From: Candidatus Saccharimonadota bacterium
GTDB taxonomy: Bacteria; Patescibacteriota; Saccharimonadia; Saccharimonadales; UBA4665
Reading direction: 5' to 3'
DNA length: 32,702 nucleotides
Assembly (NCBI GenBank): GCA_025928155.1
Contig: JAICKC010000018.1
Span: 1-32,702 of the forward strand
Shown here one piece after another: positions 1 to 7,180 of this stretch. A program made the translations under genes and the position numbers. The notes under the pieces are model-generated. The model was given only the letters and a program-made list of their open reading frames with translations, was not told where the DNA came from and did no database searches. Numbering within the stretch: position 1 is the stretch's first letter; the number at the start of each line of letters is the position of its first letter.

Positions 1-368
1 GCAAAGGCTTGCTGCAGCAAGTGGAAATACTCCGGTTCAGGCTCGTCTTCGGTGGCTTTGTGCAGCTGTTTGGTGAGTTCATAGCCGAGCATGGTGCGAT
101 TGATGTCTTGCACAATGTGTCCATAATGCGTCTGAAGCCGCGCTGATATCAGTGTACCAATTTCGCCACGGCCCCTGATAAACGTGATATTTGTCACGCT
201 GAAAAGCTCAATGCCGCCGGCCAGCTTGCTTTTGACTCGCCGCACGCCTTTGGCCATCAGCCGCAGCTTACCGTCCTGGGGCGTCAGCAATGTAATAATG
301 CGGTCAGCTTCGCCATAATCGGTGCGCGTGAGCACGATCGCGTCGGTAACATGTTGCGCTGCGTTCAT
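1..368 (-). CDS. recO: DNA repair protein RecO, N-terminal part (cut by window edge)
   Basis: Translating the minus strand from the ATG at 368 gives about 122 residues reading into the window edge with no stop. The start (DAIVLTRTDYGEADRIITLL, then a QDGKLRLMAKGVRR-like stretch and VKSKLAGG) is the typical N-terminal OB fold of RecO, which helps RecR load RecA on SSB-coated single-stranded DNA in RecF-pathway recombination repair. The ATG overlaps the TGA of the receiver-like gene upstream (ATGA, 365-368), so translation is probably coupled. The zinc-finger and C-terminal region lie outside the window. Family assignment is from recognised motif order; function is from the family. Confidence 0.88.
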   Translation of the reverse strand, partial: MNAAQHVTDAIVLTRTDYGEADRIITLLTPQDGKLRLMAKGVRRVKSKLAGGIELFSVTNITFIRGRGEIGTLISARLQTHYGHIVQDINRTMLGYELTKQLHKATEDEPEPEYFHLLQQAF

Positions 369-745
369 AGCGCTGCGGGTGCTATATGCCCCACGGCCTC
401 GCATAAGCCAGCCAGCGTCGTGGCGGGCTTATATAGAATGTTCCGCACGCCCAGCTCGCCGCGTAAAGTGGCCGCGAATGACAAGTCCTGCGGCAGCATA
501 AAGGTGTGCAGCAGCACCGGAATGTGCAGCCATTCGGGATAACTGCGGAACTCGTACAAAAACTCCACGCCGTTGTGGCTAGGCAAGAGCAGCTCCAGTA
601 CGACCACGTCCGGCGTATGTTCGTCGACCAAATGCACCGCCGTTTGTGCGCTGGTAGTATGTGCCACCGTGTGCCCTGTCTGCTCCAGCGCCGCGACAAA
701 GGTACGGGCCTGCAGGACGTCTGGTTCTACTAACAATACGTGCAT
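365..745 (-). CDS. Receiver-like protein lacking the phospho-acceptor Asp
   Basis: This is a 126-residue stand-alone protein with the CheY-like receiver fold. It shows the beta1 acidic patch (E7, D9), the beta3 strand ending VVVLELLLP where the phospho-acceptor Asp should be, T81 in the place of the conserved Thr/Ser, and K106 in the YKPA motif. Residue 51 is Glu instead of Asp, so classical phosphorylation is unlikely; a Glu here often mimics the phosphorylated state. There is no output domain. Its start shares one base with the stop of the kinase-like gene (TAATG at 743-747), and its stop overlaps the recO start, so the three genes form one coupled unit. It could still bind a partner protein; the partner is unknown. 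Confidence 0.8.
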   Translation of the reverse strand: MHVLLVEPDVLQARTFVAALEQTGHTVAHTTSAQTAVHLVDEHTPDVVVLELLLPSHNGVEFLYEFRSYPEWLHIPVLLHTFMLPQDLSFAATLRGELGVRNILYKPATTLAGLCEAVGHIAPAAL

Positions 746-1470
746 TACATTAACTGCAACTGCGCGCTCGGCTGCAGCGTCGCCGCCAGCCCCGAAAGTT
801 TATGATACCGCGCCACATGCAGCCGCGCTTCTAGCGATTGCAGTAGGCTATCCGCCACAAACACACCGGCCGCCGGACCATCTACCAGCTGCGGTAGTGG
901 CTGTCGAGCTGCGCCCTGCACCAAGCGTGCTCGGCGCAGGCTATCGACTCCCAGCTGCGCCGAACCGCTATACAGCCCCGCCACCGCACCATGCCGGCTG
1001 CGGTGGGCCATCAGATGCACCGGTGTGCGCTCTTCGGCCTCGGCCTGCGCCAGCACAAACACCTGACCTAGGCTTTCAAACGCCGATTGCAGCACCACTC
1101 GATCAGCAATCACCGGCTGCACGCGCGGCCCCGTATCGAGCTCCACGCCTACGCCATACTGGCGCGCAAATGGCACTAAGCGCTCAGCCGTATCGTAGAG
1201 CAGGCTCGAAACCGTAACCGCTTCCAGCTGCAGCGGCGTAATCTTACCCTGCACACGTAGACTAAGGGCATAACTCTCTACAAGGCGCAGTGACGAATCA
1301 GCGATTGCTCGCACGGTCTGCCAGTGTTCAAGCGTCGTCCCCGAATCACTCGCGACAGCCAGTTCGCTCAAACGAGATACGGTCAAAAACGGCCTGGTTA
1401 ACTGCTCGGCTAAACTTAAGAACAATCGTTCTTGGTCTTTAAGCTGTGCCCCTTTACCAACCTGCCGCAT
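745..1470 (-). CDS. Degenerate histidine-kinase-like protein (pseudokinase)
   Basis: The 241-residue product has the layout of a soluble HisKA plus HATPase_c pair without a sensor or membrane segment. Residues 17-40 match the HisKA dimerisation helix, but the H of the H-box (HELRTPL) is replaced by E22 (EQLTRPF). Around residues 120-140 the N-box helix has no Asn (ESLGQVF). The glycine-rich G1/G2 region near the C-terminus is reduced to GPAAGVF. Autophosphorylation therefore looks impossible. It is followed, with a one-base overlap, by a receiver-like protein that also lacks its phospho-site, then recO. No Shine-Dalgarno is obvious before the ATG. Assignment as kinase-derived is by spacing and residual motifs and is moderately sure; the role is unknown. 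Confidence 0.6.
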   Translation of the reverse strand: MRQVGKGAQLKDQERLFLSLAEQLTRPFLTVSRLSELAVASDSGTTLEHWQTVRAIADSSLRLVESYALSLRVQGKITPLQLEAVTVSSLLYDTAERLVPFARQYGVGVELDTGPRVQPVIADRVVLQSAFESLGQVFVLAQAEAEERTPVHLMAHRSRHGAVAGLYSGSAQLGVDSLRRARLVQGAARQPLPQLVDGPAAGVFVADSLLQSLEARLHVARYHKLSGLAATLQPSAQLQLM

Positions 1471-1542: not shown

Positions 1543-2226
1543 CTACGGTGAAAACGTCAAGTTCGGCAAAATGTAAGTGTTAAAATCGGGCAGGTAATCA
1601 TTCGATTCGGTCCAGATTTCCAGCGTCGTACTACGCAGCGGCAGGAGTACCAGCGTACCAGTACCACCATTTGGTTGGCTGGGTACCACCGCACCGGTCA
1701 GTATCGTACCGACTATGTTTGGAACTTTCGGTAAGGCATAGGGCGCAGCCGTGATTTTACCACTGCTTATCCGGCTGGTTAAGCCGTTGAGTATGGAGCT
1801 ATAGGACTGTGAATTCACTTGCACGCGCAAGTTGTACGTTAGTTTAGAGTCAGTCGACGGCACGTAGCCCGGATGGAAATAGGCATCCACCGGCCGACTG
1901 GCATCGGTGGTGTCGACGTAGGCACTCCAGGTTTTCGGGTAACTTACCTTGAGGCTGCCGTACGCATCGGGACCATTATAGACCACTAACGGGTTTTTGG
2001 ACGCCTCGGCGTAGTCCTTTGCATCCTGGGCCTGCACCGTTTTAGTGTTAGCCGCTACGGCGATGGCTACTTTGGCGTCGACATTGTTTTTGTAATCCTG
2101 CTGGCTGCCATATGCCCAGACCGCAAAGCTGCCCACGCCTACAAATAAAAGAGCTAGAATAATCACTGGTATCAGCAGCACGTTAAGGTCGCCGTGCTCA
2201 CCGAAGTGTTGTTTCATACTGCTCAT
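1543..2226 (-). CDS. Membrane-anchored extracellular protein, unknown function
   Basis: The 227-residue protein has a short charged N-terminus and one hydrophobic segment at about residues 15-40 (LLIPVIILALLFVGVGSFAV), followed by a soluble domain with no further membrane segments, so it is predicted to be anchored with the bulk outside. The stretch GSLKVSYPKTWSAYV resembles the start of PsbP-like domains of bacterial lipoproteins, but I cannot confirm this. A second in-frame ATG three codons downstream is also possible; neither has a clear ribosome binding site. It starts 24 nt after the methyltransferase gene ends and may be the last gene of the xseA-xseB unit. No function is assigned. Confidence 0.7.
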   Translation of the reverse strand: MSSMKQHFGEHGDLNVLLIPVIILALLFVGVGSFAVWAYGSQQDYKNNVDAKVAIAVAANTKTVQAQDAKDYAEASKNPLVVYNGPDAYGSLKVSYPKTWSAYVDTTDASRPVDAYFHPGYVPSTDSKLTYNLRVQVNSQSYSSILNGLTSRISSGKITAAPYALPKVPNIVGTILTGAVVPSQPNGGTGTLVLLPLRSTTLEIWTESNDYLPDFNTYILPNLTFSP

Positions 2227-2250: not shown

Positions 2251-2727
2251 CTAGTACCTATACAAGTATACGCCGGATTTTTCAGCCGCCGGTTTACGCC
2301 CGGAAATCTTAAACGCAAAGCTCGCCAGCGGCCTTTTGACCGTTTGCATACGTCCGTCCAACTTTGTCATAAACGGATTGAGCAAAAACACAAACACCCC
2401 GTCACACTCCGGCCACCGTACTCGCCAAAAATCGCCCCAGATAATCCGCACTTGTTTGCGGTAGCGCCGCGTACGTAGCCAGCTCACTGCAACCAAAAAC
2501 GGGTTGAGCTCGATGCCCACCACGTTCAGACCAGCCCGGACCGCCACTACCAGAACCTTGCCATCGCCGCTACCGAGTTCGAGTAGAGTTTGCCCTGGCT
2601 TCAAGTCCAATAGCTCCAGCGCTGCTTTAGCCTGCGCGTCGAGTGTCGGCACATAGGGTGCTCCGCGCAGTAGGACGCCGCCAAAGGCCAGTGCCAGCAC
2701 CAAAATGGCCGCGAACAGCCAGATCAT
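2251..2727 (-). CDS. Membrane-anchored class I SAM methyltransferase (FAM173/ATPSCKMT-like)
   Basis: The 158-residue protein begins with a single transmembrane segment (about residues 2-21) and continues with a small Rossmann methyltransferase. Motif I is LLELGSGDGKVLVVAVRAG, followed by GIELNPFLVAVSW; GDFWRV and VFVFLLNPFMTKL match the later motifs of the FAM173 family. That family includes mitochondrial lysine methyltransferases acting on ATP synthase subunit c and related targets; the target here is unknown. The start overlaps the stop of xseB by 4 bp (ATGA), so it is translated with the exonuclease VII genes, although a functional link is not obvious. The protein is short, and the C-terminus after the last strand is minimal. 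Confidence 0.75.
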   Translation of the reverse strand: MIWLFAAILVLALAFGGVLLRGAPYVPTLDAQAKAALELLDLKPGQTLLELGSGDGKVLVVAVRAGLNVVGIELNPFLVAVSWLRTRRYRKQVRIIWGDFWRVRWPECDGVFVFLLNPFMTKLDGRMQTVKRPLASFAFKISGRKPAAEKSGVYLYRY

Positions 2728-2921
2728 TCGCTGTCCGTGATGTGCTTTTTTACGACGATCTCGGCTTCGTTCAGGTACTTTTCCAGCTCTTCGACCAGCT
2801 TAAGACCGGCGGCGTGCAACGTAACCGCTTCATCTATCTGAATATCAGGGTCTTGCAGCTTGGCCACAATTTCTTCTAATTCGCTGGCCTTTTTACGGTA
2901 GTCAAAGGCGTCTTTGGTCAT
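2724..2921 (-). CDS. xseB: Exonuclease VII small subunit
   Basis: A 65-residue, mostly helical protein of the usual XseB size with the family pattern: F-Y-K-A-LEEIV-L, then the acidic DPDIQIDEAVTLHAAGLKL and a C-terminal helix. Several XseB copies bind one XseA to form exonuclease VII, which degrades single-stranded DNA from both ends in repair. The gene starts inside the end of xseA (4-bp ATGA overlap at 2918-2921) and ends inside the start of the methyltransferase gene, a coupling that suits the excess of small subunit in the complex. Confidence 0.92.
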   Translation of the reverse strand: MTKDAFDYRKKASELEEIVAKLQDPDIQIDEAVTLHAAGLKLVEELEKYLNEAEIVVKKHITDSE

Positions 2922-4039
2922 CCTGTTTTCTCCATTGATCCAATTGTAGCCCGCGCCGCGCCGTCACTCAACTGCAGCTCCACATTTGCACCGACCCGTA
3001 GGTCGCCAACCCGACGAATAAGCTTCCCTTCAGCGCGAACTAGCGCATAGCCGCGCTGCAGCGCGGCGGCCGGGTCGTAAGCTGCAAGCAAGCGTTTGTG
3101 CGCTTGTAAATTTGTCTCGGCGATGCGAAATACTGATTGTAGTTCATGATTCAAGCGCTCTTGTTGCCGCCCGATCCACTCACGGCGCTGACGCACTACC
3201 GCTTGTAGCCCACCGTTTAAACTCGCCCGCACTTCGCGCAGCTGGCTCAGTATAACGGTACGGTCGGGCGTGAGGAGCTCCGCCGCGTTGCTCGGCGTAC
3301 TAGCCCGCTGGTCGGCTGCCAGCTCCGCTAGACTGACGTCTACCTCGTGGCCAATCGCCACCAGTGTCGGCACGCGGCTGCCCGCCACCGCCCGCACCAC
3401 CCGCTCATCGCTAAATGCCGCCAGATCATCTGCACTACCGCCGCCGCGCGTCAGCACCAGCACATCAGGTACCTCCGACAGCGCGTTGACCGCTGTTATA
3501 GCTGACACGATTTGCGCAGCGGCCGGTTCGCCTTGCACCTGCACGTCAAAATGCTCCACCAGGACCCCACGCCAACGGGCGTTCAAGATCTTGAGAAAAT
3601 CGGCGTATGCTGCCGAGTTCCCGGCCGTCAGCAGCGCAACGCGCTGCGGGGGATACGGTAGCAGCCGCTTGCGCTCCGGCGCGAACAGCCCTTCGGTCTG
3701 CAGTTTCGCCACCAACAGGTCGGCCGCCTTGCGCAAGCTCCCCTCGCCTACAGGCATAACTGTCTGCACGTTCACGCTAAAACCGAACTGCGGATGTAGC
3801 CGCGGATTGCCGCTCACCCGCACTACCATGCCATCTTCCAGAGGCCCAGGCAACGCGTAGATAGTGCCAAAAAACCGCACGCTAGCCGCTTCGTCCTTGA
3901 GGTCGAAATAGACCCAACGGTTGCGGCTGACCCGGAAATTGCTCAGCTCTCCTTCGATGGCCACATACGGATACGCGACTTCGAGCGTCTCGTTCAAGTA
4001 TGCCACAAAGTCACTGACACTAAAGACTAAATCGCTCAC
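2918..4039 (-). CDS. xseA: Exonuclease VII large subunit
   Basis: The 373-residue protein has an N-terminal OB fold (SDLVFSVSDFVAYLNETLE; GELSNFR; YFDLKDEAASVRFF), then the XseA catalytic region with LLTAGNSAAYADFLKIL, DVLVLTRGGGSADDLAAFSDERVVRAVA and PTLVAIGHEVDVSLAELAAD, and a C-terminal coiled-coil region. Together with XseB it forms the ATP-independent single-strand exonuclease VII. At 373 residues it is shorter than the E. coli protein (about 456), mainly in the coiled-coil part. The start is GTG at 4039, with a good Shine-Dalgarno (GAGGAG) 8 nt upstream. It leads an operon with xseB and the methyltransferase. Confidence 0.95.
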   Translation of the reverse strand: MSDLVFSVSDFVAYLNETLEVAYPYVAIEGELSNFRVSRNRWVYFDLKDEAASVRFFGTIYALPGPLEDGMVVRVSGNPRLHPQFGFSVNVQTVMPVGEGSLRKAADLLVAKLQTEGLFAPERKRLLPYPPQRVALLTAGNSAAYADFLKILNARWRGVLVEHFDVQVQGEPAAAQIVSAITAVNALSEVPDVLVLTRGGGSADDLAAFSDERVVRAVAGSRVPTLVAIGHEVDVSLAELAADQRASTPSNAAELLTPDRTVILSQLREVRASLNGGLQAVVRQRREWIGRQQERLNHELQSVFRIAETNLQAHKRLLAAYDPAAALQRGYALVRAEGKLIRRVGDLRVGANVELQLSDGAARATIGSMEKTG

Positions 4040-4111: not shown

Positions 4112-5167
4112 TCACGCCCGTTCTTCACCAGGCTTCCTGACTGCGTTCAGCGTCTGATGGTAGAAATAGTAGCCCGGCGGCAGTTGCACCAACGTATTCA
4201 GCACGCGGTACATCACGGTCACAGGCAGGCTCAGCCGCGACGGCACGCCAGTCGCAGTCAGCACCAGCGTCATTAGCCCTTCGTAAATCCCCACCCCGCC
4301 CGGCAGTACACTCACCAGCCCCGCAAAGTTCGCTACCGCGTAGGCCAGAATAACCGCGCCAAAATTCACTAGATGCCCAAACGCCAGGTACACCACATAT
4401 ACCGCTACCACTTCCCAAAAGTTGGCTAGCAGCGCCCACACAAATGGCGCCCTGAGCTTGCGCTTGTCACTCTGGATAAACATATAATTTCGGTGCAGAT
4501 CTTCGAAAACCGCCCGGGCCCGCTCCACGTTAATGGCGTCGCCCCGACCCCGCCGGAATCCGGCCAAAAATCTGTTCAGCGCCCGCGTCGCCCACGTAAA
4601 GAACCCGGCAATCCGCCGCTCACTGCCGATGATGTACGCAAAGCCAGCAGTGCCAATCACCAAAACGGTCGTCAGCATACCAGCTACCAGCAGGATGAGA
4701 CTGTTCATACGCCCCTCAATCGCCAGACAGAACAGCCCGAATACAATCAGCACCTCAAAGCTCAGGAAAAGCAGTACCAGCTTCAACAGCTGCACCACCG
4801 TCGCCTTAGCTCCAGTGATATCAGCCCCCCGCATGCGTACACCAAAGTAGCTGATGCCGGTTACACCACCGCTCGGAAAAACGTTATTGATAAAATTAAG
4901 CTCCAAACTCGCCGCGTAGAGCCGCCAGTATCCTAGATTGTTCTCAGTGATTGCAAACAGGCTCTTATACAGCCGAGCCTGCGCGTCATAATTCAAAAAC
5001 TCGACCGGGATTATCAGCAGCAACGCCCAGGCGTGCACTTTAAACAAATTCTCAAATGTATCGGCTAATTGGCCACGTATGGCCACGACCAGGAAAACGA
5101 GCGCCGCGAGGGTTATGAGGTTAACGATAAGCTTCCAGCGCCGCGCTAGGAATGAAGTTTCGGCCAT
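4112..5167 (-). CDS. LPG-synthase-like multi-pass membrane protein (UPF0104, flippase-type)
   Basis: The 351-residue protein has about eight hydrophobic segments and the signature layout of the lysylphosphatidylglycerol synthase transmembrane family: NNVFPSGGVTGISYFGVRMRG near residue 95, and AVANFAGLVSVLPGGVGIYEGLMTLVL near residue 280. These glycine- and proline-rich loops are typical of the family, which includes the flippase part of MprF, but no aminoacyltransferase domain is attached. It probably moves or binds a lipid-linked substrate in the cytoplasmic membrane; the substrate is unknown. Its ATG lies exactly 8 nt after a TATAAT box that overlaps the -10 box of the divergent gene at 5189, predicting a leaderless mRNA. 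Confidence 0.82.
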   Translation of the reverse strand: MAETSFLARRWKLIVNLITLAALVFLVVAIRGQLADTFENLFKVHAWALLLIIPVEFLNYDAQARLYKSLFAITENNLGYWRLYAASLELNFINNVFPSGGVTGISYFGVRMRGADITGAKATVVQLLKLVLLFLSFEVLIVFGLFCLAIEGRMNSLILLVAGMLTTVLVIGTAGFAYIIGSERRIAGFFTWATRALNRFLAGFRRGRGDAINVERARAVFEDLHRNYMFIQSDKRKLRAPFVWALLANFWEVVAVYVVYLAFGHLVNFGAVILAYAVANFAGLVSVLPGGVGIYEGLMTLVLTATGVPSRLSLPVTVMYRVLNTLVQLPPGYYFYHQTLNAVRKPGEERA

Positions 5168-6793: not shown

Positions 6794-7180
6794 CTATTGG
6801 CTGAGATGGTATTTTATACGGTCGATAACGTCGCTTATCACTACTTGGGATTTTACAAGATAATCGTCGACGCCAAGCCCTTGGGCGCGCTGCTTGTCGC
6901 TCTCCTGACTGAGCGCCGTCAGCATGATAACTTTGAGATTGGCCGTTTCGGGAGTGTTACGCAGGATATCGAGCACGTCGAAGCCGCTGACCTTCGGCAT
7001 CATGGCGTCGAGCAGCACTAGGTCCGGCTTCTGCTCCTTGGCAGCCGCCAGCGCATCCTCCCCGTTCGCGACCCGCCTGACGTCGAAGCTCTCGGCCTTC
7101 AGGCGCATCATGTACACGTTGGCTAACGCATCGTCATCCTCGACCAATAGAATCTTTTTGCCGCTTAGGTCATCAGACAT
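6794..7180 (-). CDS. Stand-alone response regulator receiver protein
   Basis: The 128-residue protein is a single intact CheY-like receiver: acidic pocket E14-D15-D16, phospho-acceptor D58 in DLVLLDAMMP, T88 in VIMLTA, and K110 in DDYLVKS. There is no output domain, so it must act by protein contact. No histidine kinase with an intact H-box is in the window. It is the functional contrast to the receiver-like protein at 365-745. A TAGCAT box 7 nt upstream of the ATG is a possible leaderless promoter. Confidence 0.88.
   Translation of the reverse strand: MSDDLSGKKILLVEDDDALANVYMMRLKAESFDVRRVANGEDALAAAKEQKPDLVLLDAMMPKVSGFDVLDILRNTPETANLKVIMLTALSQESDKQRAQGLGVDDYLVKSQVVISDVIDRIKYHLSQ

Follow-up and report, generated by a model that had tools for sequence, protein, structure and literature searches.

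A conserved pseudo two-component pair beside recO in Saccharimonadia, with intact relatives and a clamp-like kinase tail

Results

Gene arrangement at the locus

The window, which is the whole stretch of DNA analysed (32,702 nt), corresponds to positions 1-32702 of contig C6 in a 33-contig genome of 1.30 Mb. The first genes of the window encode the beginning of RecO, a stand-alone receiver and a kinase-like protein. They are preceded by five further genes whose order is shared by most of the named loci and by members of the class. Residue counts in the list refer to orthologues in the window's own family, f1.

3..368, minus strand: N-terminal 122 aa of RecO, truncated at the contig end (RecO_N 72.4 bits; TIGR00613 70.8 bits)
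365..745, minus strand: stand-alone pseudo-receiver, 126 aa (PF00072 match; model pLDDT 93.9; Foldseek matches to receivers, e.g. RR468 and DivK)
428..430, minus strand: Lys106 codon of the receiver (Lys in 86/88)
503..505, minus strand: Thr81 codon (Ser/Thr in 85/88)
530..577, minus strand: residues 57-72, a loop plus helix alpha3, where the receiver is most strongly conserved (G59, E65 and Y69 in 88/88)
593..595, minus strand: Glu51 codon GAG at the phospho-Asp position (Glu 84, Ala 2, Asn 1, Ser 1, Asp 0 in 88)
719..727, minus strand: Glu7-Pro8-Asp9, with Pro for the second metal-binding acid (Pro8 in 87/88)
745..1470, minus strand: kinase-like protein, 241 aa, a pseudo-histidine kinase (fold model pLDDT 87.4, pTM 0.85; best Foldseek matches are histidine kinases; no Pfam kinase match)
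748..762, minus strand: C-terminal tail QLQLM of the kinase-like protein, seen in the sequence
1405..1407, minus strand: Glu22 codon at the phospho-His position (Glu 76, Asp 5, Gln 3, Val 1, His 0 in the 85 sequences whose box could be read, two others being truncated)
1543-2226, minus strand: unnamed upstream gene
2251-2727, minus strand: methyltransferase-like gene
2724-2921, minus strand: presumably xseB
2918-4039, minus strand: presumably xseA
4112-5167, minus strand: presumably a flippase-like gene

The recO gene starts at an ATG at 368 and its remainder lies beyond the contig end. The receiver ORF shares 1 bp (base 745) with the kinase-like ORF and 4 bp (bases 365-368) with the RecO ORF, in agreement with an earlier note on this DNA that had placed the receiver between the two genes with overlaps of these lengths. 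From their sequences, we take xseB and xseA to be the exonuclease VII genes. We also noted a second stand-alone receiver at 6794-7180 (minus strand) with canonical acids and Asp (LLVEDDD, LLDAMMP). Many genomes have a weaker receiver match ~6-15 kb from the recO-linked receiver, which is only a candidate counterpart of the one at 6794-7180.

A receiver without the phospho-acceptor aspartate

The protein encoded at 365-745 matched Pfam Response_reg (PF00072) with 47.3 bits against a cut-off of 30.2, and this match, together with the alpha/beta fold seen in the model and by Foldseek, identifies a receiver fold. The catalytic residues are incomplete: Glu51 takes the place of the phospho-Asp and, of the two metal acids, Glu7 is kept and the second is Pro8. 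The earlier note had described Glu51 at the phospho-site with Thr81 and Lys106 retained, as the sequence bears out; the loss of the second acid of the metal pair (Glu7-Pro8) goes beyond it.

By score and context, a receiver orthologue was found in 88 of the 93 f1 genomes searched, covering ~38 of 41 genera; none was found in G022, G030, G040, G078 and G092. Asp51 is present in none of the 88, as expected for pseudo-receivers, and Glu51, whose conservation the earlier note had proposed to check, is indeed the rule in f1. Residue counts exclude records L009-L030, many of which are named copies of genomes already counted and one of which, L030, is a chance Pseudomonas receiver. The record titles of 18 among the receiver's 22 named relatives read Saccharibacteria, Saccharimonas or Saccharimonadales, so that the group is probably Saccharimonadales of the Patescibacteria. 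The operon was also seen in records L012 and L029, titled Chlamydiae and Parcubacteria, titles that may be wrong.

Glu7, G59, E65 and Y69 are invariant in the receiver alignment (Glu7 in 88/88), and G59, E65 and Y69 are likewise invariant across the 85-row alignment A1. The aromatic residue three positions before the conserved Lys is Tyr in 71/88 f1 receivers and Ile in the window. Positions 14, 17, 18, 21 and 22 on the alpha1 surface, the usual kinase-docking face of receivers, are variable, with the commonest residue found in 13 to 28 of the 88. In genus g14, position 51 is occupied by N, A, S or A in the receivers of L037, L055, L077 and L088, and the Lys is changed in two of them, while the alpha3 stretch is kept. 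Glu51 as a strict requirement was therefore rejected, given g14 and also family f10, where six of seven loci have Asp and one has Glu. As a hallmark, Glu51 holds for f1 but does not extend to the sister family f2 and the outgroups, where Asp is normal and the same operon carries an intact kinase and receiver.

A kinase-like protein without the phospho-histidine

No HisKA or HATPase_c Pfam match was obtained for any of the 85 f1 kinase-like proteins at E 0.01, and identification as a histidine kinase by these two profiles failed for the protein of the window, whose only NCBIfam match was VanS-O, far under its cut-off. Given that the Pfam kinase families miss it, the protein is probably annotated as hypothetical. 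The overall histidine-kinase fold is, by comparison, predicted: the model (pLDDT 87.4) consists of a helical hairpin and an ATPase-like domain, and the best Foldseek matches were HK853, ZraS, RetS and DivL (TM about 0.56 to 0.65). DivL (4q20) was also the one weak sequence match in a PDB search (E 0.16).

Kinase boxes were located by eye on an alignment that excludes proteins < 200 aa. The phospho-His is absent from all 85 f1 sequences in which its box could be read, and the usual nucleotide-binding residues are replaced. G165, Y167, G202, A206, G227 and Q237 are present in 87/87 f1 kinase-like proteins, and A102 is also invariant. On these residues the protein is a pseudokinase under selection, and the earlier note's description of the receiver's neighbour as a pseudokinase stands, with His in 0/85, the nucleotide-pocket motifs gone and a histidine-kinase fold predicted. 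In-frame TAG codons were seen within the kinase gene at G217:C27 and within recO at G698:C17.

Linkage to recO within a longer gene string

In f1, a kinase-like gene on the same strand adjoins the receiver in 87/88 cases, the one miss (L103) lying at a contig edge, and RecO adjoins it in 84/88, with misses at contig edges for L098 and L115 and away from edges for L096 and L101. The three-gene order that the earlier note had proposed to check is thus conserved in the family. In 53 of these 84, receiver and recO overlap by exactly 4 bp, as computed by a script that took the start codon nearest the aligned Met. Kinase, receiver and recO also occur in order in 39 of 40 chosen loci from 26 families and in 22 of 23 further recO loci, the remaining locus being cut.

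The genes upstream are ordered as well. Their order is kept in the named loci (for the different genes, 18 to 20 of 21; from xseA to 1543-2226, 19 or 20 for each gene, with xseB in 19) and in class members including f2, f4, f30 and f32. Because the trio sits in this longer conserved string with xseA and xseB, its linkage to recO is weak evidence within the class, and once the string had been found, gene order was given less weight as a sign of a link to RecO. Of the module proposed in the earlier note, phosphorylation-free and tied to recombination repair, the first half is supported in that neither protein keeps the normal phosphotransfer residues; the tie to repair is the weaker half, as the recO linkage in the class belongs to the longer string.

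Outside the class, kinase and receiver precede recO in 6 of 69 recO loci, picked by RecO score and some of them cut; three are from f71 and three from f82. In these six loci, the flanks examined, about 0.9 to 4.8 kb ahead of the kinase, showed none of the genes that lie upstream in the window. A trio without the string favours a real recO link, but the f71 and f82 trios may have one origin. Three f2 loci (L315, L321 and L323) have no detectable kinase or receiver before recO. At L148 (G340, f25), a degenerate kinase and receiver adjoin a flippase-like gene and recO was not found within 4.7 kb. RecF scored above the cut-off in 110 of 117 class genomes; the idea that the pair substitutes for RecF was therefore rejected, and clamp-to-RecO targeting need not depend on the pair.

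Intact relatives and repeated loss of the phosphotransfer residues

A profile of the kinase-like protein matched in 271 of 392 class genomes at E 1e-5, a count that includes weak matches, perhaps to genes other than the recO-linked one. Intact pairs were found in f2, f4, f8, f14, f15, f30, f32, f71 and f82, most with a His box, N-box and GLGL in the kinase, and with Asp in the receiver. Sister families and outgroups have this trio too, there with His and Asp intact, which indicates a two-component pair that lost its chemistry. In a RecO tree of 96 rows (30 from f1), the lineages with intact pairs branch at the base, and the changed rows other than the f2 row L202 group together. This placement suggests that the intact His/Asp form was probably ancestral; both this tree and the 61-row tree below were built by a quick method, and many of their forks are weak. 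The kinases are long in f71, f82 and f32, where they carry PAS and mostly GAF domains, and bare in f30 and f2, a series that reads as a path from sensor kinase to bare kinase to pseudokinase.

Losses within f2 were seen in deliberately chosen low-scoring genomes. The pair was present at 19 of their 25 recO loci, three others being cut by contig edges and three having no detected pair. Among the 19, twelve lack the His and keep the Asp, and L311 is cut before the box. L318 retains His with Asn in place of Asp, and the f2 locus L202 lost both His and Asp separately, again with Glu. The 61-row RecO tree requires 6 changes of state for His and 3 for Asp, so that on the sequences compared the kinase His is a residue lost several times. 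For f10, six of seven loci carry Asp51 and a kinase without His; the seventh, L341 (G330), is the reverse, with His back in the kinase box and Glu51 in the receiver.

The initial 125 loci comprised 15 with His and Asp both kept, 109 with neither and one with Asp only; the 109 include L134, which is truncated ahead of the His box, and L137, whose sequence is gapped at the box. Strictly coupled loss was rejected with 171 loci (the 125, the loci of the 25 chosen low-scoring f2 genomes and the 23-locus recO set), of which 46 keep both, 110 keep neither, 14 keep Asp only (including L311, cut before the box) and 1 keeps His only.

A conserved C-terminal tail resembling clamp-binding motifs

The kinase C-terminus carries a loose motif, Qxx[LMIF][LIVFMW], in 167 of 173 proteins overall and in 86/87 from f1. 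The six misses are L115, L128, L208 and L164, L173 and L179; the last three are the f82 kinases beside recO, all of which lack the tail. As controls, none of 29 further HATPase_c proteins, taken from ten genomes, had the loose motif (by and large the best 30 of 95 matches, one of them incomplete); it was found in 5 of 266 other stop-to-stop ORFs >= 200 aa (related loci included) and in 5.8% of random 14-mers of the same composition. The first Gln of the tail is invariant (87/87 in f1, 30/30 in f2), and the tail is retained in the 12 low-scoring f2 kinases with a His box that was read and has no His.

The published clamp motif is, in the parts of the source examined, Q-aliphatic-x-[L/M][F/L], with Ile also tolerated at the last position (PMC11139829). 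The strict form occurs in 34 of 173 tails and in only 1 of 87 from f1, where tails end mostly in V or I. The window's QLQLM, ending in M, does not fit it. For intact kinases, the strict motif was present in 12/15 and 12/26 of two sets. Outside f1 the commonest tail is QLSLL (11/60), and L210 has an exact QLSLF. For comparison, the replicative polymerases carry Q-x-D-[LI]-F in 17/17 genomes, and DnaN and RecR were found in 10/10 genomes checked. Residues 231-240 of the model have a mean pLDDT of 85 and form a short helix at 236-239, which does not support the tail as a plainly disordered peptide. Whether the kinase tail binds the sliding clamp is, on these data, about an even call.

Discussion

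The locus combines known parts in a new way: in a large group of very small, symbiotic bacteria, recO is accompanied by a conserved pseudo two-component pair that has intact relatives and whose kinase-like member ends in a clamp-like tail. The window's receiver stands alone, has a pseudo-kinase partner and precedes recO, unlike the DNA-binding regulators ChxR and RitR. It nevertheless shares with these two, and with HP1043 and FrzS, a receiver fold without phospho-Asp; in the sections examined of one source, Asp-to-Glu is the commonest change in such aspartate-less receivers, at 26% (PMC4395418). The FrzS pseudo-receiver binds SgmX through an alpha3-beta4-alpha4 face (PMC12632262, in part) that is partly conserved here. 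In PhoB D10A/D53E (PDB 2jb9), an entry whose title calls it constitutively active, a second acid is likewise lost and Asp changed to Glu, although this protein is a transcription factor carrying two mutations made in the laboratory and not a natural stand-alone protein. The kinase-like protein resembles DivL-type pseudo-histidine kinases (4q20 being among the Foldseek matches) in repurposing the histidine-kinase fold; DivL, as far as the material consulted describes it, is a large Caulobacter regulator of CckA, whereas here the protein is a bare 241 aa, its nucleotide-pocket motifs are gone and the receiver is also dead. The Pol II and Pol IV clamp-binding tails are likewise short Q-led C-terminal motifs (PMC11139829, in part), but the known motifs follow the strict pattern, whereas f1 tails end mostly in V or I and the window's in M. 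RecF-DnaN targeting of RecOR offers a functional parallel, RecF being proposed, in the parts of the paper examined, to bind the clamp and guide RecO/RecR to gaps (PMC10287930). RecF differs in being an ABC ATPase, and it coexists with the pair in most class genomes, so that the pair is no substitute for it.

The best explanation we can offer, which we put forward tentatively, is that a two-component pair gave up phosphorylation and now serves as a fixed adaptor between clamp and RecO. The probable ancestral form, as seen in sister families and outgroups, comprises a histidine kinase, a single-domain Asp receiver and RecO, in that order. In the derived form (f1 and about 20 other families), phospho-His and phospho-Asp are each replaced, mostly by Glu, with the second metal acid mostly Pro, the nucleotide-pocket residues lost and both proteins still under strong selection. 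Gene order, residue states, tail conservation and the likely polarity of change come from the sequences compared, whereas the clamp and RecO contacts and the active-like shape described next are inferred. A dimer of the kinase-like protein would dock on the DNA sliding clamp by its C-terminal QxxL-hydrophobic tail and hold the receiver, which Glu51, with Ser/Thr81 and Lys106, would keep active-like. The conserved alpha3 face of the receiver would then contact a partner, of which co-translated RecO is the likeliest, thereby placing or restraining RecO at replication-associated gaps. Phosphorylation would switch this contact in the intact form; in the pseudo form the contact would be constitutive. 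The adaptor proposal draws on the likeness to PhoB D10A/D53E, on phosphate mimicry by Glu and on the FrzS alpha3-beta4-alpha4 face. By analogy, mimicry of the active state by Glu51 is plausible; the sections of the literature examined describe Glu as a possible partial mimic of phosphate that is often insufficient alone (PMC12632262; PMC4395418).

The step from gene order to function is where a different account has some force. The pair might have nothing to do with RecO, being a decayed two-component system with another partner, and the recO adjacency might simply reflect a string inherited whole. The ordered upstream genes in the named loci and in f2, f4, f30 and f32 fit such an account, as do the three f2 genomes with recO and no detected pair and the pair without a nearby recO at L148. 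The f71 and f82 trios, which lack the string in the flanks examined, and the 4-bp coupling of receiver and recO in 53/84 argue the other way, and we regard this account as possible but somewhat doubtful. That the pair consists of pseudogenes on their way out is, in comparison, highly improbable. Repeated loss of the His and the pair's absence from three f2 genomes would be expected of decay, but orthologues with invariant columns (E7, G59, E65 and Y69 in the receiver; A102, G165, Y167, G202, A206, G227 and Q237 in the kinase) persist in ~38/41 genera, and these columns already contradict decay for f1.

The adaptor proposal also depends on an active-like receiver and a clamp-bound tail, and each of these can be read otherwise. 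The altered receiver pocket could be structural only, and the protein might be controlled by how much partner is available or by some other ligand, a possibility raised for other pseudo-receivers. The N, A or S that stands in for Glu51 in four otherwise conserved g14 receivers, the toggling of D and E in f10 and the Ile at the usually aromatic position of the window's receiver are consistent with a receiver that is not locked on, and Asp-to-Glu alone often fails to activate, according to the parts examined of PMC4395418. The joint retention of an acid at 51, Ser/Thr81 and Lys106 in nearly all 88 receivers speaks against this reading, to which we give slightly less than an even chance. For the tail, packing within the kinase-like protein or binding to the receiver or RecO would account for the poor fit of f1 tails to the strict motif and for the confident helix at 236-239. 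The invariant first Gln, the prevalence of QLSLL outside f1 with the exact QLSLF in L210, and the persistence of the tail where the His is gone point instead to the clamp, and the chances that the tail does not bind it appear evenly balanced.

In the literature searched, outside which most subscription papers lay, we found no earlier description of a pseudo two-component pair beside recO and none of a kinase with a clamp-binding motif. The examined parts of the TM7x transcriptome paper (PMC10768705) contain neither 'response regulator' nor 'histidine kinase' and do not name RecO.

In many families the two altered partners are found side by side in one operon, and living relatives keep the active version. 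The locus is thereby a natural experiment in which the same receiver is found with Asp, Glu or neither, and its kinase partner either has or lacks the His. A broader scenario, which we consider rather unlikely as a whole, is that a histidine kinase rides the clamp and passes its signal to RecO by way of a bare receiver, such that loading of the recombination machinery would be under two-component control, and that many lineages later hard-wired this system, mostly with Glu for both phospho-residues, leaving a constitutive clamp-RecO adaptor. We know of no earlier two-component link between the replication machinery and RecO; if the tail does bind the clamp, this pair would, to our knowledge, be the first.
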